From Elusimicrobiota bacterium (GTDB taxonomy: Bacteria > Elusimicrobiota > Elusimicrobia > UBA1565 > UBA9628), in contig JAUYSH010000017.1 in NCBI GenBank assembly GCA_030696455.1, forward strand, positions 1-64,000: DNA of 64,000 bases, written 5' to 3'. Position numbers and translations under genes: made by a program. Positions 32,051-42,088 of this stretch are shown here, piece after piece; the first letter of the stretch is position 1, and the number at the start of each line of letters is the position of its first letter. Under the pieces are notes generated by a model, which saw only the letters and a list, made by a program, of their open reading frames with translations, was not told where the DNA came from and did not search any database.

Positions 32051-32791
32051 ATGATTAGTATGGGAAGACGACCAAGAATACATTATCCCGGCGCCATCTA
32101 TCATGTGCTGGCGCGGGGCGTGAACGGGACGCGCATATTCCTCGATGACCAGGACTACCGTAAATTCCTGGAGGCGCTGAATCGAATAGCGAAAGATGCC
32201 GGCATGGTTATTTACGCCTATTGCCTGATGCCGAATCACTTTCATTTGGCGGTCAAGGTGGGCACCGTCCCCCTTGGCGCGATCATGCACAGGATACTCA
32301 CGGGCCACGCGCATACTTTCAATCAGCGCTATGACCGGGAGGGGCACCTTTTCCAAGGCCGCCATAGAGCTTATTTGTGCCTAGACGACCGGTATTTTCT
32401 GCGGCTCATTCGCTATATACAGATGAACCCGGTTCGAGCGGAGCTCGTGAGCAGGCCCGAGGATTGGCCCTGGTCGAGCCGCACGCCTGTTGAGCTTCCC
32501 GACATGGAAACCGACTCTTTTGATCCATGGCCTAAGGAAATCATTGCGCCGAACTTGGCGCGGTCTGATAATCAGCGGCAGGAAACACTCGATGAAATCG
32601 GCCGGGAAATATGCGGGACAACTGGTGTCGGCTTGGATGAGCTGCGCTCGCGTTCGAAGCGGAGGAGCTTTGTCGGCGCCCGCATCCTTTTCGCGAAAAA
32701 GGGGGTTGCGCGCGGCCACCGCCTCGGGGCGATCGCTGCCTGGCTTGGCAGCAAAACGGAATCGGTGTCGTATTATCTGCGGCGAATTTAA
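32051..32791 (+). CDS. REP-associated tyrosine transposase (RAYT, Y1/HUH family)
   Basis: The Y1 transposase fold is clear: GRRPRIHYPGAIYHVLARG, FLEALNRIAKDAG, YAYCLMPNHFHLAVK (HxH metal site), GHLFQGRHRAYL and YIQMNPVRAELV near the catalytic tyrosine. The C-terminal ~70 residues form a helical, DnaA-like DNA-binding region (FVGARILFAKKGVARGHRLGAIAAWLG). Such proteins bind and cut REP hairpins as single strands. At 246 residues the gene is intact. Its TAA stop is inside REP copy 3. A second in-frame ATG is at 32060. Confidence 0.9.
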   Translation: MISMGRRPRIHYPGAIYHVLARGVNGTRIFLDDQDYRKFLEALNRIAKDAGMVIYAYCLMPNHFHLAVKVGTVPLGAIMHRILTGHAHTFNQRYDREGHLFQGRHRAYLCLDDRYFLRLIRYIQMNPVRAELVSRPEDWPWSSRTPVELPDMETDSFDPWPKEIIAPNLARSDNQRQETLDEIGREICGTTGVGLDELRSRSKRRSFVGARILFAKKGVARGHRLGAIAAWLGSKTESVSYYLRRI

Positions 32792-32811
32792 CGAATTTGA
32801 AGGCCTGACAC
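32783..32811 (-). repeat. REP-like repeat, copy 3 (inverted)
   Basis: On the minus strand it reads as the 29-base core with T in place of G after AGGCCT. It contains the transposase stop codon on the plus strand and encodes the last seven residues (VSGLQIR) and stop of argH on the minus strand. Confidence 0.85.
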
Positions 32812-34125
32812 CAATCCCGTCCATTTCTTCTCCAAATTTCCCCGGGTCGAGGTCGACCAGCGGGAATCCTTGAGGTTCTGCGTCCGCAGTGCCTTCCAGT
32901 CGGGCTTGCCGGGGGCGCCGAGGTGGGAGGGCATGGGCGGATCGGCGACCACTCGAGGCTTGGCGGCGCGGGCGCGGGAAGCGACCTCGCGGTAGGCGGT
33001 GCGGAAGGGGACGCCGTCGCGGACGAGGGCGATGGCTTCGTGGGTGGCGAGGAGGTCGGAGGTGACGGCGGCGGCGCAGGCGGTCTCGTTGACCTTGAGG
33101 GATTCGGGCAGGCGGGCGGCGATCTCGAGCATCTGGCCCATCGTGTCGAGCGCGGCGAACAGAGGCCCCTTGGTCAGTTGGTAGTCGCGGTGGTAGCCCG
33201 AGGGGAGCTGGCCGATCATGAGGACCTGGTTGAGCCAGCCGGGAAACAGCGCCGCGCGGGCACGGGTGAGCTCGACGACGTCGGGGTTCTTCTTCTGGGG
33301 CATGATGCTCGAGCCGGTCGTGAACGAATCGGAGAGCTTGAGGAAGCCGAACTCGGCGGTGCAGTACAGGGACAGGTCCCATGCCAGGACGCCGAGGTCG
33401 CGGGCCACGAGGCACAAGGACGAGAGCACGGCGGCCTCCAGGCGCGGGCGGCTCGACTGGACGCGCAGGGTGTTGCGCTGCACGCGCGAGAAGCCGAGCA
33501 GCTTGGCCGCGCGCTCGCGCGGGAGCGGGAGCATGACACCGTAGCCGGCGGCCGAGCCGAGGGGGCAGGCGTCGGCCTCGTCGAAGGCGAAGCGCAGGGC
33601 GCGGCGGGCCTCGAGGAGGGCTTCGACATGGGAAGCCGCCCAGTGGCCGATCGTGGTCGGCATCGCGCGCTGCAGGTGAGAGTAGCCGGGGATCGGGCGC
33701 TTGTCCCACTTCGCGCCGAACGCGGCCCAGGCGGCGGCGGCGGCGCCGGCCGCGGCGTCGAGTTTGAGGAGCCGGTCCTTCAGATACAGACGCAGGTTGA
33801 CCTGAACCTGGTCGTTGCGCGAGCGTCCGGCGTGGACCTTGGCCCCGATCTCGCCGAGCTTCGTGGTCAGCGCCTGCTCGACGGCGGTATGGATGTCCTC
33901 CTGCTCCCGGGTGATCTTGACGGCCTTGAGCCCGCACAGGACCTTGCGGATGCGCGCGTGCTCGGCCTTCGTGAGCACCCCGATGGAGACGAGCCCGGAG
34001 GCGTGCGCCAGGCTGCCGTAGACTTCGTAGGGAAGGAGGCGCGCGTCGAGCTCGGGGTCGGCGCCGACGGTGTAGGCTTCGACGGCACTGTCGAGATCGG
34101 TCTTGGTCTGCCAGAGCTTTTTCAT
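32788..34125 (-). CDS. argH: Argininosuccinate lyase
   Basis: It splits argininosuccinate to arginine and fumarate, the last step of arginine synthesis. The fumarase/aspartase superfamily signature GSSIMPQKKNPDVVEL is intact, as are HAGRSRNDQVQVNLRLYLKD and the catalytic PGYSHLQRAMPTT region. It is the last gene of the arginine operon and overlaps argE by 4 bases. The extreme C-terminus VSGLQIR and the TAA stop come from REP copy 3, so the native tail has been replaced; catalytic parts lie far from it, and the enzyme is likely active. Confidence 0.95.
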   Translation of the reverse strand: MKKLWQTKTDLDSAVEAYTVGADPELDARLLPYEVYGSLAHASGLVSIGVLTKAEHARIRKVLCGLKAVKITREQEDIHTAVEQALTTKLGEIGAKVHAGRSRNDQVQVNLRLYLKDRLLKLDAAAGAAAAAWAAFGAKWDKRPIPGYSHLQRAMPTTIGHWAASHVEALLEARRALRFAFDEADACPLGSAAGYGVMLPLPRERAAKLLGFSRVQRNTLRVQSSRPRLEAAVLSSLCLVARDLGVLAWDLSLYCTAEFGFLKLSDSFTTGSSIMPQKKNPDVVELTRARAALFPGWLNQVLMIGQLPSGYHRDYQLTKGPLFAALDTMGQMLEIAARLPESLKVNETACAAAVTSDLLATHEAIALVRDGVPFRTAYREVASRARAAKPRVVADPPMPSHLGAPGKPDWKALRTQNLKDSRWSTSTRGNLEKKWTGLVSGLQIR

Positions 34126-35177
34126 GCGGCCGCCTTTTCGAAGTAGGACCGGATCAGCTTCTCGTAGAACTCGACGCCGGCCTCGAGCTCGGCGACCTCG
34201 AGGTATTCGTCGGGAGTGTGGGAGCGCTTCGAGTCGCCGGGGCCGGCCTTCACCGTGGGAATGCCCTTGAGGAAGACCCAGTCGGACAAGGTCGGCGAGC
34301 CGTAGGCGCGGCCGGAGGGGTTGGCGGCGAGCGCCGCCTGGACGACGGGGTGGGCGGGGTCGGTCTCGACGGACCCGAGCCGGTTGGAGCGTATCGTCAC
34401 CTCGCCTTCGACATGTCTCTTGACCATGTCGATGATCTCTTCCGGGCTGACCGAGGGAACGGTCCGGATGTCCACGACCAGCTTGCAGCGGTCCGGGATC
34501 ACGTTATGGCGGTCTCCGCCGGAGATCTGGGTCACATGCAAAGTCGTTCGACCTAAGGCAGGATGCTCTCGGTCGAATCGGATCTTCGACAGGGCCAGCA
34601 CGTCCCGCGCCGCCGCTTCGACGGCGTTGATCCCGCCGCCATGCGCGGCGTGCGCCGAGCGGCCCTTGGCGATGATCTCGAGAAGCAGCAATCCCTTCTG
34701 CGCGACGGCGGCCTTCAACCCGGTCGGCTCGCCCACCACGGCCGCGTCGGGCCGCGGCAAGGTCGGCAGGAGCACCTCGAGGCCTTGGCCGAGGACCTCT
34801 TCCTCGCAGGACGCCGCGATGAGCACCTTGCCCTTGGGCGCGTTCGAGGCGAAGGCTTTCTGCGCGGCGATGAGCATGGCCACGAGACATCCTTTCGCGT
34901 CGTTGGAGCCGCGTCCGTAGATCTTGCCGTCCTCGATGTCCGCCTTGAGGGGATCGCGCGTCCAGCCCTGGCCGACGGGGACGGTGTCGGTGTGGGAGTT
35001 AAGGAGAAGAAGGGGACCGTCACCTCCGTCCAACAAAGCCGTCAGATTCCGGCCGGAGACGGCCGGTGACATGCCCAGCTCGAGCATGGCCGATTTCAAC
35101 CGCGCGACGACGGCGTCCTCTTGCCGCGACTCGGAAGGGATGCGGACGACCTCGCGCAGGAGCTCGACGGCGTTCAT
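34122..35177 (-). CDS. argE: M20 family deacetylase, ArgE-like (acetylornithine or acetylcitrulline deacetylase)
   Basis: A zinc metallo-hydrolase of 351 residues. Metal ligands are visible in LNSHTDTVPVG, GRGSNDAKG, SCEEEVLG (catalytic Glu and ligand), VGEPTGL and a C-terminal RSHTPDEYL. The dimerisation domain starts at SAHAAHGGGINAVEAA. ArgE and DapE families are close, but the arginine operon context supports deacetylation of an arginine precursor. Because the carbamoyltransferase upstream looks acetylornithine-specific, the substrate here is probably N-acetylcitrulline, as in Xanthomonas. It overlaps argB and argH by 4 bases each. Confidence 0.85.
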   Translation of the reverse strand: MNAVELLREVVRIPSESRQEDAVVARLKSAMLELGMSPAVSGRNLTALLDGGDGPLLLLNSHTDTVPVGQGWTRDPLKADIEDGKIYGRGSNDAKGCLVAMLIAAQKAFASNAPKGKVLIAASCEEEVLGQGLEVLLPTLPRPDAAVVGEPTGLKAAVAQKGLLLLEIIAKGRSAHAAHGGGINAVEAAARDVLALSKIRFDREHPALGRTTLHVTQISGGDRHNVIPDRCKLVVDIRTVPSVSPEEIIDMVKRHVEGEVTIRSNRLGSVETDPAHPVVQAALAANPSGRAYGSPTLSDWVFLKGIPTVKAGPGDSKRSHTPDEYLEVAELEAGVEFYEKLIRSYFEKAAA

Positions 35178-36148
35178 TTGGCGCTTCGCGCCAAATTAAT
35201 TTCTTCAGAAACGGAGCTCGCGGCGTCGTTCAACTCGACGGCCTGGTATTCCTGGCGCTCGCGCTTCTCGACGATCATCGTGCCGCAGCCGGCGTTGGTG
35301 AAGGTCTCGCGCAGCAGCGCGCCGGGCTTGAGGCCGTTGATGATGTGGGTCCGGCGCACGCCGCCCTTCAGGGCGCGCACGCAGGCCTCGATCTTGGGCA
35401 GCATGCCGCCGGTGAGGCGCCCGGCCTTCTTGAAGCCCTCCACCTCCTCGACATCCGTATAAGACACGAGGCTCGAGGGGTTGCCCGCGTCCTTGAGCAG
35501 GCCCTCGGTGTCGGTCACGATGACGAGCTTCTCGGCCTTCAGCGAGCGGGCGATCGACTCGGCGATCGAGTCCGCGTTGATGTTGAAGATGTTGCCCATG
35601 GTGTCGGCGCCGAGGCAGGAGACGACGGGCGTCATGCCCGCGTCGAGCAAGGTCAGCAGTACCTTGGGGTCCACGCCGTCGATGTCGCCGACGAAGCCGA
35701 AGTCCACCTCGATCGGGGCCTGGCCGGGGGCCGGCTCGACCATGCGCTTGGGGCGCCGGTGCGCGGTGACGAGGCCGGCGTCCACGCCGGACACGCCGAC
35801 CGCGGACGTGTGGTGGGCGCGGAACGAGGAGAGGATGTCGATGTTGAGCGTGCCGCCGTAGACCATCTTGGCGACCTCGAGGGTTTCCGCGTCGGTGACG
35901 CGGCGTCCGGCGATGATCTCGGGTTCGAGGCCGAGCTTCTTGGCGAGCTCGGTGGCCTGGTTGCCGCCGCCGTGCACGAGCACAACTCGGATCCCCACCT
36001 GCTGCAGGAGGCAGACATCCTCGACGAGCGCGTCGAGCATCTCCTTGCGACCGACCACGCGGCCTCCGACCTTCACGACGAAGATCTTTCCCTTGTACAT
36101 GCGGATGTAGGGGATGGCCTGCTTGAGCATCAAAGGCGAGTCGGTCAT
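35174..36148 (-). CDS. argB: Acetylglutamate kinase
   Basis: It phosphorylates N-acetylglutamate with ATP, the second arginine step. The amino-acid kinase motifs are present: FVVKVGGRVVGR, LVHGGGNQATELAKKLG, GRRVTDAETLEVAKMV, NINADSIAESIARSL and LTGGMLPKIEACVRAL. At 324 residues it is longer than many ArgB proteins: a short N-terminal helix (MLKQAIPYIRMYKG) that is typical of NAGKs, and about 25 extra C-terminal residues. No acetyltransferase domain is fused to it, unlike the Xanthomonas enzyme. It overlaps both neighbours by 4 bases. Confidence 0.93.
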   Translation of the reverse strand: MTDSPLMLKQAIPYIRMYKGKIFVVKVGGRVVGRKEMLDALVEDVCLLQQVGIRVVLVHGGGNQATELAKKLGLEPEIIAGRRVTDAETLEVAKMVYGGTLNIDILSSFRAHHTSAVGVSGVDAGLVTAHRRPKRMVEPAPGQAPIEVDFGFVGDIDGVDPKVLLTLLDAGMTPVVSCLGADTMGNIFNINADSIAESIARSLKAEKLVIVTDTEGLLKDAGNPSSLVSYTDVEEVEGFKKAGRLTGGMLPKIEACVRALKGGVRRTHIINGLKPGALLRETFTNAGCGTMIVEKRERQEYQAVELNDAASSVSEEINLARSAK

Positions 36149-37173
36149 TTGCGGTGTCTCCTGGCGGGGGCGGGTTTGGGCGAGGCGAGTAAATGGAGAA
36201 GAACGGCTTTGGCGGTGTGGAGGCGGTTCTCGGCCTCATCAATGACGACGGACCAAGGGCCGTCGAGGACGGCGTCTTCCACGACCAAGCCCCGGCGGAC
36301 CGGTAGGCAGTGCATGAAAATGGCCTTTTCGGTCCGCTGCATCTTGGCGGCGGAGATGGTCCATTTTTTACGGAAAGCGGGGTCGGACGAAGGGGGCTTG
36401 CCGTACTCGCTGAGTGACCCCCAAGATTTTCCGTAAACGACGTGTTGACCGTCAAAAGATTGGGGAACCTTGTCGGTCAAGCTCAAGCGGGCGCCATTCG
36501 CCGCGCAATTATTTCCTACGCGCGCCATCACTTCCGGATCGAGATCATAGCCTTCCGGTCTTGCGATCGTGACATTCATTCCCGCCATCGACGCGATCTC
36601 GACGGCTGAATTCGGAACGGCCATCGGTAATGCCTTCACGTGCGGAGCCCACGAAAGAAGAAAATTCTTTTTCTTCGGCTCCATCCTTTCCCGGATCGTC
36701 ATCAGATCGGCCAGCGCCTGGCAGGGATGGCCTGACGCCGACTCCATATTGATGACCGGCACGGTCGAGTACTTGATGAAGGCGGCCAAGGCGTTTTCCT
36801 TCTTATCCTCGGCCCATGACTTGCCGGCGGGAAACGATCTTAATCCGAGCCCCTGACACATTCGCCCGAGCACGGGGACCGCCTCCTTGAGATGCTCCGC
36901 GGCCGTTCCGTCCATGACGACGCCCTCGACGGATTCCATCCCCCAGGTCCCGCCCGAGCCGAGGCTCAAGGTGACCGGGTGGCCGCCCAAGGACGCGGTC
37001 GCGACCGAGAAGGAGACCTGGGTGCGCAAGGACGGGTTCATGAAGCAGAACGCGAGGGATTTCCCGGCGAGCGGCAGCCCGGCGGGCGCCGACTTCTTGA
37101 GCGCGATCGCCGAGTCGATGATGGCGTTGAGCTCATCGATGGTGAAGTCCTTCAGATGAGTGAAGTGCTTCAT
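36145..37173 (-). CDS. argF': N-acetylornithine carbamoyltransferase (ArgF')
   Basis: The carbamoyl-phosphate motif is FMNPSLRTQVSF instead of the STRTR of ordinary ornithine carbamoyltransferases, and the second motif is HPCQALADL instead of HPTQ. The region GTWGMESVEGVVMDGTAAEH, GLRSFP, STVPVINMES, HCLPVRRGLV and IDEAENRLH follows the Xanthomonas acetylornithine carbamoyltransferase as I recall it. The Glu in WGME falls where that enzyme has its specificity Glu92, while succinylornithine enzymes of Bacteroides have Pro. I therefore infer acetylornithine as substrate. The DNA has fewer G and C than its operon neighbours. Confidence 0.8.
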   Translation of the reverse strand: MKHFTHLKDFTIDELNAIIDSAIALKKSAPAGLPLAGKSLAFCFMNPSLRTQVSFSVATASLGGHPVTLSLGSGGTWGMESVEGVVMDGTAAEHLKEAVPVLGRMCQGLGLRSFPAGKSWAEDKKENALAAFIKYSTVPVINMESASGHPCQALADLMTIRERMEPKKKNFLLSWAPHVKALPMAVPNSAVEIASMAGMNVTIARPEGYDLDPEVMARVGNNCAANGARLSLTDKVPQSFDGQHVVYGKSWGSLSEYGKPPSSDPAFRKKWTISAAKMQRTEKAIFMHCLPVRRGLVVEDAVLDGPWSVVIDEAENRLHTAKAVLLHLLASPKPAPARRHRK

Positions 37174-37176
37174 GGC

Positions 37177-38343
37177 TTAGGCGGCGACCGTTTCGGCCGA
37201 GAAGATCTCTTCGAGCGCGCCGCGCAGGAGGCCGATCTCGGCCGGGCCGACGGTGAGCGGGGGAAGGAGCCGGATGACGTGGATATCGTCGGCTCCGCCG
37301 ACGATAATCTTCTTCTTCAATAGAGCGTCGCGGATCGGCTTGGACGGCCGGTCGAGGACCAGGCCCAGAAGGAGGCCTTTGCCGCGGATCTCCTTGATCT
37401 GGGGGAAATTGAAGGTCGCACGGATGAGCTCCTCCATCTCCGCGGCGTTCTCGGTCAATTTCTTATCGACGATCGCCTTGATCGTGGCGCTGATCGCCAC
37501 GCTGGCGAGCGGACCGCCGCCGAAGGTCGAGCCGAGCGCGCCGGGCTTGACCTTGGCCGAGACCTCCGGGGTCGCAAGCACGGCTCCGGCCGGAACGCCG
37601 GAGGCGAGCGCCTTGGCGAAGGTCTGCAGGTCCGGGCGGGCGCCGAACGCGTGGCGCGCGGAGGGGGCGCCGACCCGGCCAAGGCCGGTCTGGACCTCGT
37701 CATAAATCAAAAGACTTCCGTTTTGCTTGCAGAGCGCGGCCAGGCCATTGAGATATTCTCCCGTTGCCGTGGTGCAGCCCTGAACGCTTTGAATCGGCTC
37801 CAGAAGAAAAGCCGCGGCGTCCTTCAAGGCCGTCTCGGCCGAGGAGAGATCCCCGAAAGGCACGTGCACGATATCGCATCCAAGCCCCGCCATATTTTTT
37901 CTGTACTTATAACCCGTCGCGGCGACCGCCCCCGCCGTTCGGCCATGAAATCCGCCCTCGGCGGCCACGATCTTCGCCTTGCCCGTCACGCAGCGCGCGA
38001 TGCGCATCGCGTTCTCGTTGGCCTCGGCGCCCGAGTTGCAGAAGAACACCTGGGAGCCCTTCTCGCCGCAAAAATCCACCAGCGCCTTGGCTGCCTCGGC
38101 CCGGACCTTCAGATAGACGAGGTTCGAGTAGAACAGGAGCTTGGCGGATTGCTTCGTGATCGCGGCCGTTATCTCGGCGGGCGAGTGCCCGATCGCCGCG
38201 ACGGCGTGACCGCCGTACAGGTCGAGATACTTGTTGCCTTCCTCGTCCCAGACCCAGCAGCCTTCGCCGCGGTCAAGGACGAATGGGAATTTTTCGTAGG
38301 TCGGCAGCACGTACTCGTTCTCCAGCGCCAGCGAATCAACCAT
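37177..38343 (-). CDS. argD: Acetylornithine aminotransferase
   Basis: A PLP-dependent class III aminotransferase that makes N-acetylornithine from the semialdehyde with glutamate. Visible motifs are YLDLYGGHAVAAIGHS, FCNSGAEANENAMRIAR, EGGFHGRTAGAVA, LLIYDEVQTGLGRVG and the PLP lysine in TFAKALASGVP. The start ATG 38343 was chosen since the frame upstream lies inside argC. The length of 388 residues is normal. It lies 5 bases after argC and 3 bases before argF'. Confidence 0.93.
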   Translation of the reverse strand: MVDSLALENEYVLPTYEKFPFVLDRGEGCWVWDEEGNKYLDLYGGHAVAAIGHSPAEITAAITKQSAKLLFYSNLVYLKVRAEAAKALVDFCGEKGSQVFFCNSGAEANENAMRIARCVTGKAKIVAAEGGFHGRTAGAVAATGYKYRKNMAGLGCDIVHVPFGDLSSAETALKDAAAFLLEPIQSVQGCTTATGEYLNGLAALCKQNGSLLIYDEVQTGLGRVGAPSARHAFGARPDLQTFAKALASGVPAGAVLATPEVSAKVKPGALGSTFGGGPLASVAISATIKAIVDKKLTENAAEMEELIRATFNFPQIKEIRGKGLLLGLVLDRPSKPIRDALLKKKIIVGGADDIHVIRLLPPLTVGPAEIGLLRGALEEIFSAETVAA

Positions 38344-38348
38344 GTTTG

Positions 38349-39377
38349 TCACGGGTAGGTCCCCGCGGCCTCGAGGCCGACGCTCTCGTCCCAGCCCAGC
38401 ATCACGTTGAGGTTCTGGATGGCCTGGCCCGACGCCCCTTTGACCAGGTTGTCGATGGCGGAGATCACGCAGATGCGGCCTTCCTGGACGGTGACGAATA
38501 CGTCGCAATGGTTGGAGCCGTTGACGGCGTTGAGCGAGGGGGGCTCGGGCACGAGGCGGACGAAAGAGCTTCCCTTATAAGCGGTCGCGTACAGATCCTT
38601 GACCTTCTCCGCCGTCCAGCCCTTGGGCAGGTCCACCTGGCACACCGCGTAGATGCCGCGGGAAAAGGGGCCGGAGATCGGCACGAGGGACAGCTTGAGG
38701 GCTTTCTTGCCCGCGAGGCGCTCGAGGATCTGTTCGACCTCGGGGATGTGCTGGTGGGTGAAGGGCTTGTACGCCTTCAGGTTGCTGTGGCGCGTGGGAT
38801 GGTGAGTGATGGGCGTCGGGTTGACGCCCGAGCCCGAGGAGCCGGTGATCGCGGTGACGGACACGACGCCGACGACGCCGCCCTTGGCCAGGGGCCCGAG
38901 GGCCAGCGCCGTCGCGGTGGCGAAGCAGCCGGGGTTGGCGATGAGGCGGGCCTTGGCGATCTCGGCGCGGTTGAGCTCGACGAGCCCGTAGGCGAATTTC
39001 TTGAGCAGCTCCGGGGCCTTGTGCTTGCGCGTGTACCATACCGGGTAGAGGGCCTCGTCGCGCAGACGGAAGTCCCCGGAGAGGTCGATGATGCGCAGGC
39101 GCGGGGTCTCGGCGATGATCGCCGGTACGTTGCTCATCGCGTCGCCGTGCCCGCCCGCGAGGAAAATGCAGTCAAGCTTCGCGTAGTCGAGCTTGCGCGT
39201 GAAGGACAGGCTCGTGCGGCCCCGCAGGTTCGGATGCGCGAGGAACACCGGCTGGCCCGGGAACGTGGAGGAGGTCGCCGCGGCGATCTCGACCTTCGGG
39301 TGGGAGAGCAGGAGGCGGATCAGCTCTCCGCCCGTGAACCCCGCGCCTCCCTCGATGCCGACCTTGATCTTCTTCAT
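38349..39377 (-). CDS. argC: N-acetyl-gamma-glutamyl-phosphate reductase
   Basis: It reduces acetylglutamyl phosphate with NADPH. Rossmann motif VGIEGGAGFTGGELIRLL, catalytic cysteine in ANPGCFATATALAL, and SGVNPTPITHHPTRHSNLKAY and HTHQHIPEVEQIL-type segments identify type 1 ArgC. 342 residues, normal. The start ATG 39377 overlaps the stop of the P-loop gene by 4 bases. Confidence 0.94.
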   Translation of the reverse strand: MKKIKVGIEGGAGFTGGELIRLLLSHPKVEIAAATSSTFPGQPVFLAHPNLRGRTSLSFTRKLDYAKLDCIFLAGGHGDAMSNVPAIIAETPRLRIIDLSGDFRLRDEALYPVWYTRKHKAPELLKKFAYGLVELNRAEIAKARLIANPGCFATATALALGPLAKGGVVGVVSVTAITGSSGSGVNPTPITHHPTRHSNLKAYKPFTHQHIPEVEQILERLAGKKALKLSLVPISGPFSRGIYAVCQVDLPKGWTAEKVKDLYATAYKGSSFVRLVPEPPSLNAVNGSNHCDVFVTVQEGRICVISAIDNLVKGASGQAIQNLNVMLGWDESVGLEAAGTYP

Positions 39378-40426
39378 GCCGGCACGCCCCCGAACACGGC
39401 CTTCTCGACGAACTGGCCGAGGGCTTCGGCCTCGATGCGGGCGTTGATCGCCTTCACGCCGACCTGGCCCTCGATGAACTCCTTGCCGACGGCGTTGTCG
39501 GTGGCGGGGCCGGAGAGGACGTCCACCTTCAGCTTGAAGCGGTTCGTGAACAGCTCGACGGCGCCCCAGGCGGAGACGGGGTCGTTGGCGCACATCACGT
39601 GCGCGCTCGCCGCCTGCATCAGCTCCGGGTCCTTCAGGATCTCCTGGACGCCGTACTCGCCCATGATCCCGTCGCCGAGCTCGATGACCAGGCAATCCGG
39701 CTCTTCCTTGTTGAGGGCGTTGATGAGGCCCTTGGCGACGGGCACCGACACCGCGCCGGTCGTGGAGACCACGCCCGCGTCGGTGAAGGACAGGCCCTTG
39801 ATCGCGCCGCGGTCGACCATGCTCATCGTGTCGCGCAGGAGCGAGACGCCGGTGAGCTTGGCCGCGCCGACGCGGTAGCCTTTGCGCGCGAGGAAGCGGA
39901 TGATCTCGCCGCAGGCGAAGGTCTTTCCGGCGTTCATGCAAGTCCCCGCCACATAGATGATCGGCGCCGATTTCTCGAGCTTGTCCGACCAGGCGACCGC
40001 GCCGGTCCGGATCGAGGCGGGCACGCCCACCCGTTCGCCGAGATGGGGGAACGAAAGAATCTGTCCCAGCACTTCGGCCTGGAGAGGCTTTCCTATCTCG
40101 AGGTTCACCGAGGTGCAGCGCCCGATGACGCCGCCCAGGTTGAGGATGTCGAGCTTGTCGCCGACCTTGATGGACTCCGGGACATGGCCCGCGTAGCCGC
40201 GCAGGGCGCGCCGCGTGCCGAGGACGGCGGCGATGATGTCGCCGTCGTTGAGGTCGATCATGCGGCCGTAGATGTCCTCGAGCGTGTTGTACACGGTCTT
40301 CTTGCCGTGGACGCGGACGGCGAGGACCATGCCTTCCTTGGCCTGGATCTCGTCGGAGAGGAGGACCTCCCGGGGGATGCGGGCGTTGCGCGTCGTGGAC
40401 GCGATCTTATCGAGCGTTACTTTCAT
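39374..40426 (-). CDS. P-loop NTPase of unknown function embedded in the arginine operon
   Basis: 350 residues, cytoplasmic. Residues 1-135 form a beta-rich domain with GKKTVYNTLEDIYGRMIDLNDGDIIAAVLG and LDILNLGGVIGRC. Residues 145-300 have a Walker A motif in IYVAGTCMNAGKTFACGEI, then GAAKLTGVSLLRD and a Walker B-like CLVIELGDGIMGEYG. The GTxMNAGKT form occurs in MobB- and DUF1611-like NTPases. I cannot assign a reaction. It overlaps argG and argC by 4 bases each, so it is made in step with the pathway. It might bind or modify an intermediate, act in the missing acetyltransferase step, or regulate flux; none is shown. Confidence 0.75.
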   Translation of the reverse strand: MKVTLDKIASTTRNARIPREVLLSDEIQAKEGMVLAVRVHGKKTVYNTLEDIYGRMIDLNDGDIIAAVLGTRRALRGYAGHVPESIKVGDKLDILNLGGVIGRCTSVNLEIGKPLQAEVLGQILSFPHLGERVGVPASIRTGAVAWSDKLEKSAPIIYVAGTCMNAGKTFACGEIIRFLARKGYRVGAAKLTGVSLLRDTMSMVDRGAIKGLSFTDAGVVSTTGAVSVPVAKGLINALNKEEPDCLVIELGDGIMGEYGVQEILKDPELMQAASAHVMCANDPVSAWGAVELFTNRFKLKVDVLSGPATDNAVGKEFIEGQVGVKAINARIEAEALGQFVEKAVFGGVPA

Positions 40427-41628
40427 GAAACCACCTTTTCCGCGCGCGCGCGGGCCGCCAACGTCATCGGGAGGGCGTGGAGCTTCGAGAAGCCCGCGGC
40501 CTCGTCGCCGGTCCACAGCTTGGTCGTTTCGCCGTAGGTCGCGGCGCCGGCGATCATGGAATAAGGAGATTTGACGCCGGTGACGTCGAATCGTCCCGCG
40601 CGCAGGCGCAAGCGCGCCTCGCCGGTGACCGTTTCCTGGCTCGATTTGATCATCGCCTCGATGTCGCGCATGACGGGATCAAAATAAAGTCCTTCGTGAA
40701 GCATCTGGCCGTAAAACTCGCCGGCCTGGTTCTTCCAAAAGCTCTGCCAGCGGGTCAGAACGAGTTTCTCGAGCTCGTTATGGGCCGCGATGAGCATCAA
40801 CGGCGCGGGGGCTTCAAATCCGATCCGTCCCTTAATACCAAGGATCGTGTCCCCCATATGCACTCCCCGCCCGACAGCGTACTTGCGTCCAAGAGCGTGC
40901 AAGGCCCCCACAAGGTTCACCCCTTCCGTTGCCGTTCCGTTCAAAGACGTGGGTATGCCTTTCGTGAAGCCGACGACGATTTCTGTTTGTTCCGTCGGAG
41001 GCTCGGCCGACATCGAAGGAAAGGCCGAGTCGGGAATCTCCGTCCACGGGTCATGCGTGGCCCCGCCTCCGACCGTGGTTCCCCACAGCCCGGCGTTGAC
41101 CGAATACGCGGTCGTCTTCGCGGGCACGTTCACGCCTTCCTTGGCGAGATAATCCGTTTCCGCCTGGCGCGAGAGCCCCAGGTCCCGGATCGGCGCGTGA
41201 ACCTTCACATTAGGAAGCAAGACTTGGAAGACGGCATCAAACCGCACCTGATCGTTGCCCGCCCCGGTGGACCCGTGGCAGACGCCGTCGGCCTTGACGT
41301 CCTTCGCGACTCGCGCCACGAGCTCCGCTTGCAGCACGCGTTCGGCGGCCACCGACAGCGGGTACACCCGTCCCCGCAGGATGTTGCCCTGGATGAGGGG
41401 CACCGCGAAGCGTGAAAAAACCTCGGCCCGCCCGTCGAGCGCGTAGTGCTTGACCGCGCCGAGCGCCTTGGACCGCGCGGCGATCGCGGCCAGTTCCTCC
41501 GCGGAGAACCCGCCGGTGTCCACGGTCGCGGTGATCACATCGGCGCCGAGCTCCTTTTTGAGCCACAAGACGCAGAAGGTGGTGTCGAGTCCGCCGCTGA
41601 AGGCGAGAACGATGAGAGGCTTCTTCAT
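40423..41628 (-). CDS. argG: Argininosuccinate synthase
   Basis: It joins citrulline and aspartate with ATP to argininosuccinate. The N-type ATP pyrophosphatase PP-loop is LAFSGGLDTTFCVLWLKK. CHGSTGAGNDQVRFDAVF and GRGVHMGDTILGIKGRIGFEAPAP are diagnostic of ArgG, type-2-like in its shorter linker regions. 401 residues. ATG 41628 follows the argR stop by one base. Confidence 0.94.
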   Translation of the reverse strand: MKKPLIVLAFSGGLDTTFCVLWLKKELGADVITATVDTGGFSAEELAAIAARSKALGAVKHYALDGRAEVFSRFAVPLIQGNILRGRVYPLSVAAERVLQAELVARVAKDVKADGVCHGSTGAGNDQVRFDAVFQVLLPNVKVHAPIRDLGLSRQAETDYLAKEGVNVPAKTTAYSVNAGLWGTTVGGGATHDPWTEIPDSAFPSMSAEPPTEQTEIVVGFTKGIPTSLNGTATEGVNLVGALHALGRKYAVGRGVHMGDTILGIKGRIGFEAPAPLMLIAAHNELEKLVLTRWQSFWKNQAGEFYGQMLHEGLYFDPVMRDIEAMIKSSQETVTGEARLRLRAGRFDVTGVKSPYSMIAGAATYGETTKLWTGDEAAGFSKLHALPMTLAARARAEKVVS

Positions 41629-41629
41629 G

Positions 41630-42088
41630 TCAGTTGGCCATCCTTGATTCGAGGAATTCGATGAGCCGCTTCTGCGCGGCGGCGGAGTCTCCGGCCACGA
41701 ACACGGTGTCATCGCCCGCGAGCGTGCCGACGAGGCCGGGCTGGGCCAGCCCGTCGAGGACGAGGCCCACGCGGGGGGCGGTGCCGGTGTCGCAGCGGAT
41801 CACGGTCAGGTTCGGGCCCGCGGCGACGACGCCGCGCACGAAGGAGCGCAGCGGCATCTCGGCGTCGTGGGCGGCCTCGCCGGTCGCGGGGCGGTAGACG
41901 CCGGCCGCCTTGATGAGGCCCAGTTCGGCGATGTCGCGCGAGATGGAAACCTGGGTGGCGGCGATGCCGCGCTTTTTGAGCGCGCGTACGAGATCATTTT
42001 GCGTGGCGACCTCCTCCTGCGTGATCGCCTGGAGGATCGCGGTCTGGCGGGCGGCCTTGCCCTCGGCTCTGTCTGCATATTTATTCAT
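41630..42088 (-). CDS. argR: Arginine repressor
   Basis: The N-terminal winged helix carries ILQAITQEEVATQNDLVRALKKRGIAATQVSISRDIAELG, and the C-terminal arginine-binding/hexamerisation domain has GTAPRVGLVLDGLAQPGLVGTLAGDDTVFV. 152 residues, normal. It heads the operon and is preceded by two ARG boxes that overlap its own promoter and start codon, so it represses the whole nine-gene unit, itself included, when arginine is bound. Confidence 0.95.
   Translation of the reverse strand: MNKYADRAEGKAARQTAILQAITQEEVATQNDLVRALKKRGIAATQVSISRDIAELGLIKAAGVYRPATGEAAHDAEMPLRSFVRGVVAAGPNLTVIRCDTGTAPRVGLVLDGLAQPGLVGTLAGDDTVFVAGDSAAAQKRLIEFLESRMAN

Follow-up and report, generated by a model that had tools for sequence, protein, structure and literature searches.

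The first step of arginine synthesis, the N-acylation of glutamate, is a known gap in genome annotation (PMC7311316). In Bacteroidetes, the role of N-succinylglutamate synthase has been assigned through genetics and gene context to BT3761/ArgA2 (Q8A1A5), which is proposed to succinylate glutamate in an arginine pathway that also features a succinylornithine carbamoyltransferase (PMC7311316; PMC9026213). In Xanthomonas campestris, step one is supplied by a bifunctional N-acetylglutamate synthase (NAGS)-kinase whose operon also encodes a knotted carbamoyltransferase and ArgE (PMC1865377). In this enzyme the kinase is joined to a NAT domain, and the pathway it serves is an acetyl one. Three residues tell the two types of carbamoyltransferase apart: acetylornithine carbamoyltransferase (AOTCase) is marked by Glu92, Asn185, and Lys302, and the succinylornithine enzyme by A/S/P/V/Q at position 92, P at 185, and V/I/E at 302 (PMC4581275).

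The gene described here, termed X, lies in an arginine operon of an Elusimicrobia metagenome-assembled genome (MAG). Its context suggests that the product probably performs step one, most plausibly as an N-succinylglutamate synthase. X would then resemble ArgA2 in the reaction proposed and in its partner carbamoyltransferase, and the Xanthomonas enzyme in supplying step one alongside a knotted carbamoyltransferase and ArgE encoded in the same operon. It differs from both in kind. ArgA2 is a GNAT-type protein, and the Xanthomonas enzyme belongs to an acetyl pathway with E, N, and K at the three carbamoyltransferase positions, whereas X is a SIMIBI P-loop protein with an additional beta domain that matches no known structure. 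If the proposal is true, X represents an additional, unrelated enzyme family for step one, with a fold that had not been connected with this reaction, and a function is assigned to a family absent from Pfam and NCBIfam. It would also account for arginine synthesis without ArgA or ArgJ in Myxococcus, these Elusimicrobia, and others, and would extend the succinylated arginine pathway beyond Bacteroidetes. The literature searched, which did not include most subscription journals, yielded no description of the X family or of DUF1611 enzymology.

An Unassigned Gene in an Arginine Operon

The window analyzed is a 64,000-nucleotide stretch of contig JAUYSH010000017.1 (assembly GCA_030696455.1). Its minus strand carries an arg operon at 32788-42088 in the order argR-argG-X-argC-argD-argF'-argB-argE-argH, in which all genes other than X were named by Pfam and NCBIfam (Table 1). 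The X reading frame is intact, running from ATG to TGA over 350 codons. A sequence-only reading of this DNA had described X as overlapping both neighbors by four bases, and both overlaps were found: the ATGA at 40423-40426 joins the argG stop to the X start, and the ATGA at 39374-39377 joins the X stop to the argC start. The same reading held that X is not a known arg gene, and scans against Pfam and NCBIfam agree, with no family match and neither a GNAT/NAT domain nor an ArgJ fold detected.

Table 1. Features of the arginine operon (positions in the window)
Feature	Position	Strand	Basis
X, candidate N-acylglutamate (probably N-succinylglutamate) synthase, 350 aa	39374..40426 (stop codon included)	-	ORF, 4-base overlaps, conservation in arg clusters
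N-terminal beta domain of X, residues 1-149	39980..40426	-	Predicted structure; without PDB fold match
SIMIBI P-loop domain of X, residues about 155-350	39377..39964	-	Walker A 161-169, K190, D199, E249
argR, arginine repressor	41630..42088	-	Pfam/NCBIfam
argG, argininosuccinate synthase; start assumed at MKKPLIV methionine	40423..41628	-	Pfam/NCBIfam
argC, N-acyl-gamma-glutamyl-phosphate reductase	38349..39377	-	Pfam/NCBIfam
argD, acylornithine transaminase; start assumed	37177..38343	-	Pfam/NCBIfam
argF', knotted carbamoyltransferase, succinylornithine-type residues A, P, V	36145..37173	-	NCBIfam, alignment; criterion PMC4581275
argB, N-acylglutamate kinase without NAGS domain	35174..36148	-	Pfam/NCBIfam
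argE, M20-family N-acyl deacylase	34122..35177	-	Pfam/NCBIfam
argH, argininosuccinate lyase without GNAT domain	32788..34125	-	Pfam/NCBIfam

Distribution of X

A scan of 84,980 species yielded 35 X loci, hosted by Elusimicrobia, Myxococcus, other Deltaproteobacteria and proteobacterium MAGs, Holophagaceae, one Woesearchaeon, and a few oddly labelled records. The sequence-only reading had named homologs lying mostly outside arg operons as one finding that would count against it. Instead, arg genes flank X in 34 of the 35 loci, nearly always with a knotted carbamoyltransferase among them. The gene directly downstream is argC in 29 of the 33 loci where this could be tested, and the gene directly upstream is argG in 22 of 32. 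The exception (L035, 10001-11059) is a homolog from a MAG that bears the label Cyanobacteria. It is 56% identical, lacks arg genes within 10 kb, and is possibly mis-binned or a relocated gene. The closest X among GTDB genomes is also from Elusimicrobia, with 97% identity, while identity in other lineages is 46-62%. As a side observation, repetitive DNA lies between argF' and argB at one locus of a Pseudomonadota MAG (L028, 14276-15247), where a repeated motif is seen in the translated frames.

As to conservation across the phylum, X was found in 5 of 199 genomes drawn across Elusimicrobiota and in 14 of 44 genomes of its own family, and within the phylum it was found in that one family only. 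The family copies from other species comprise 10 full-length genes (76-97% identity), two truncated at contig ends, and one that is split. Thirteen family genomes have both X and a strong argF' match (at least 66% identity), one has X only, on a truncated contig, and one has argF' only. The last of these (G208) was rejected as an exception, since its contig stops at argC.

Patchiness within Elusimicrobiota, together with the L035 gene that lacks arg neighbors, would suit an unrelated passenger that moved with the operon by horizontal transfer. Such an origin is nevertheless very improbable, as X stays beside arg genes in distant lineages and under several operon layouts, and its active-site residues are invariant. 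X is a real, conserved member of the arginine operon in several phyla.

The Missing First Step

The operon itself offers no other source of N-acylglutamate, as the sequence-only reading had noted for N-acetylglutamate synthase: ArgB is a lone kinase, and neither it nor ArgH carries an acetyltransferase domain. The search was extended to whole genomes. None of the 14 X genomes tested had an ArgJ, which 10 of 14 control genomes had. Full-length ArgA was likewise found in none of the 14, where matches to the ArgA profile cover the kinase part, and weak matches to the GNAT half of ArgA appeared only in two large Myxococcota genomes. The home genome encodes 11 PF00583 GNAT proteins, and any of these may be a source of acylated glutamate. 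None of them, though, is encoded inside the arg operon, and the seven scanned against NCBIfam matched no NAGS model. The 1.2 Mb genome of the Woesearchaeon encodes three PF00583 proteins. As the survey covered PF00583, a GNAT-type NAGS elsewhere in X genomes, such as one from another GNAT family or of the ArgA2 kind, is only partly excluded.

The type of carbamoyltransferase strengthens the argument for a missing step. As argF' uses acylated ornithine, there is no hydrolysis of acylornithine for ArgJ to replace; ArgJ recycling is impossible in such a pathway, and a synthase is required.

Among 195 Myxococcota genomes, 59 have a full-length or nearly full-length X and 90 have ArgJ, but none has both (Fisher p 5e-21, a value that ignores the relatedness of the genomes). 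One of the ArgJ genomes (G252) has a remote X paralog only. Together with the absence of ArgA and ArgJ from X genomes, this exclusion upholds the earlier view that X is tied to arginine synthesis and that step one is otherwise unaccounted for.

A carbamoyltransferase above the AOTCase cut-off occurs in 67 of the Myxococcota genomes, 57 of which also have X. Two X-positive genomes, G420 and G427, lack a strong argF' match; in both, X lies at the end of a contig. Four carbamoyltransferases that score near the cut-off (G239, G240, G241, and G243; 298-300 bits) were set aside; in the two that were read (L177 and L178), the active-site loop differs and the surroundings lack further arg genes. Six genomes have a strong AOTCase (532-562 bits) and no X. 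In the three of these whose operon is readable in full (G247, G416, and G404), ArgB is extended at its C-terminus; scans of two of them confirmed a PF04768 NAGS domain, and in the third the extension is visible. Relatives of the Xanthomonas NAGS-kinase are located in operons without X. As far as read, each operon with an AOTCase-type carbamoyltransferase has either X or a NAGS domain. In Myxococcota and in the readable AOTCase operons, X occurs where no other step-one enzyme was found and is lacking where one is encoded.

This strict complementarity with ArgJ and NAT domains, combined with a conserved, ligase-like active site, argues for an enzyme. It makes it quite improbable that X is a regulator, a sensor, or a modifier of another pathway enzyme, for instance one tuning arginine flux. 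P-loop proteins are capable of a switch role, and the tight translational coupling of X to argG and argC would suit one, but the operon already holds argR.

Succinyl or Acetyl

Against the N-acetylornithine carbamoyltransferase model the argF' product reaches 374 bits (cut-off 288), and it does not pass the cut-off for ornithine carbamoyltransferase. An acetyl pathway was the first assumption, and it was dropped when an alignment with the PDB AOTCase variants placed Ala at position 92. In that alignment argF' has A, P, and V at positions 92, 185, and 302, the pattern of a succinylornithine enzyme. Across the X-linked carbamoyltransferases that were read, position 92 is A, Q, V, or T and never E, position 185 is nearly always P, and position 302 is mostly V, I, or E. 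By comparison, the AOTCases of X-less operons all have E, N, and K. Based on these specificity residues, the pathways are most likely succinylated and X most likely forms N-succinylglutamate; judged from sequence, a succinyl product is likely and an acetyl product a lesser possibility. A few X-linked carbamoyltransferases (L196 and L198) have the mixed residues V, A, and K, so the acyl group may vary.

Fold and Active Site of X

The AlphaFold2 model of X is of high confidence (pLDDT 92.2, pTM 0.91). As the sequence-only reading had proposed, the protein begins with a beta domain, which also models well when taken alone (pLDDT 92). A PDB sequence search with X gave no significant match, and a PDB fold search with the N-terminal domain alone gave none either (best E 0.99). 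In a fold search the C-terminal domain resembles SIMIBI NTPases, with HypB on top and with BioD and SRP GTPases among the matches (E about 1e-6 to 1e-5). The P-loop GTCMNAGKT noted earlier is present, and G161, T162, G167, K168, and T169 are invariant across 28 homologs; NTPase activity is predicted. When five remote paralogs (21-26% identity) are added to the 28 X proteins, K168, T169, K190, D199, and E249 remain invariant.

These features are those of a dethiobiotin-synthetase-type SIMIBI protein: the fold, the Walker A GKT, a Lys after strand 2, and an Asp and a Glu as Mg ligands, all shared with BioD (1dts, 3of5). K190, D199, and E249 of X are taken here, partly through a profile alignment, to be the equivalents of K37, D54, and E115 of BioD. 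In a profile search, residues 158-190 of X align with residues 6-38 of dethiobiotin synthetase, and the last aligned residue is the active-site Lys (E about 1). This alignment is a lead backed by the fold, and falls short of sequence proof. X does not group with BioD itself, as it scores 12.3 bits against PF13500 (cut-off 27), carries the extra beta domain, and resides in arg rather than bio operons.

As HypB is the top fold match, X might also serve ArgE, the zinc-type M20 deacylase, as a metallochaperone or maturation NTPase, with N-acylglutamate made by a GNAT elsewhere. The paralogs of X adjoin M20 or M14 metalloenzymes, in keeping with such a role. However, a metal site would need Cys or His, and no Cys or His is invariant across X and its remote paralogs, which disfavors the role. 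Moreover, X-less AOTCase operons also have an M20 ArgE, with a NAGS domain there in place of X, and the exclusion between X and ArgJ would be left unexplained. A maturation factor is therefore hardly probable.

A Possible Mechanism

As a synthase, X would acylate the alpha-amine of L-glutamate, most likely with succinyl, and ArgB, ArgC, ArgD, the knotted carbamoyltransferase, and the M20 deacylase would then act on the N-acylated intermediates. BioD forms a C-N bond driven by MgATP. The P-loop domain of X may bind MgATP in the same manner and phosphorylate succinate, possibly drawn from release by the M20 enzyme, and the resulting acyl phosphate would be attacked by the glutamate amine. The N-terminal beta domain may hold glutamate or close the site. 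In its full form, the proposal makes X an ATP-dependent succinate:L-glutamate ligase that uses acid recycled from the deacylase, with paralogs protecting amines elsewhere, for example in phosphonopeptide synthesis; we put this forward tentatively, as one possibility.

Alternatively, X may be an acyl-CoA:glutamate N-acyltransferase for the same step, in which the P-loop holds CoA and the donor is acetyl-CoA or succinyl-CoA. Acetyl-CoA is the donor of known NAGS enzymes. DgcN (DUF1611; PDB 7xrj), a P-loop protein of similar class annotated as a D-glutamate N-acetyltransferase, offers a precedent, and DUF1611 is the Pfam family weakly matched by most X proteins (20 of 28, best E 1.3e-4). Yet the two families align at the P-loop only, and their N-terminal domains differ. 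In DgcN the Walker lysine is followed by M, K, or R instead of T/S, and no conserved residue corresponds to K190, whereas X retains the complete Mg-nucleotide set. A DgcN-like transferase is the less likely reading. The full residue set, unlike that of DgcN/DUF1611, slightly favors activation by MgATP over CoA-dependent transfer, such that ATP plus acid is marginally the more probable chemistry.

X was also considered as a member of the DUF1611/DgcN family, and this was rejected. PF07755 (gathering cut-off 25 bits) does not match the X of this operon at E up to 1, and its best matches to Myxococcota X proteins reach 21.5-23 bits. An hhalign comparison of X with DUF1611 covers 33-63 columns around the P-loop at 8-9% probability, rather than the whole domain. 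Besides the Walker differences, the context differs as well: dgcA or dipeptide epimerase genes adjoin most of the DUF1611 genes that were read, while X lies among arg genes.

Paralogs Outside Arginine Operons

Paralogs of X (21-26% identity) occur outside arg operons. Their pairing with potential deacylating hydrolases fits an acyl-adding role, in a small sample of which some cases would fit a metallochaperone too.

On the Priestia megaterium plasmid NZ_CP085446.1 (L183, 1805-10493), a paralog is found with PEP mutase, TPP-enzyme subunits, and two ATP-grasp ligases, and the same cluster includes an ornithine carbamoyltransferase and an M20 amidohydrolase. The whole looks like a phosphonate gene cluster. 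In the ArgJ-containing Myxococcota genome G252, the remote paralog lies directly downstream of an M14/AstE-AspA-like hydrolase gene (L182, 1412-3875). Rhodobacterales plasmids carry three more (L184, 4962-6059; L185, 4977-6029; L186, 3968-5020); their annotations read DUF1611 protein or dethiobiotin synthase, and an ABC transporter gene comes directly after each. The paralog in Paracoccus comes after an alpha/beta hydrolase gene.
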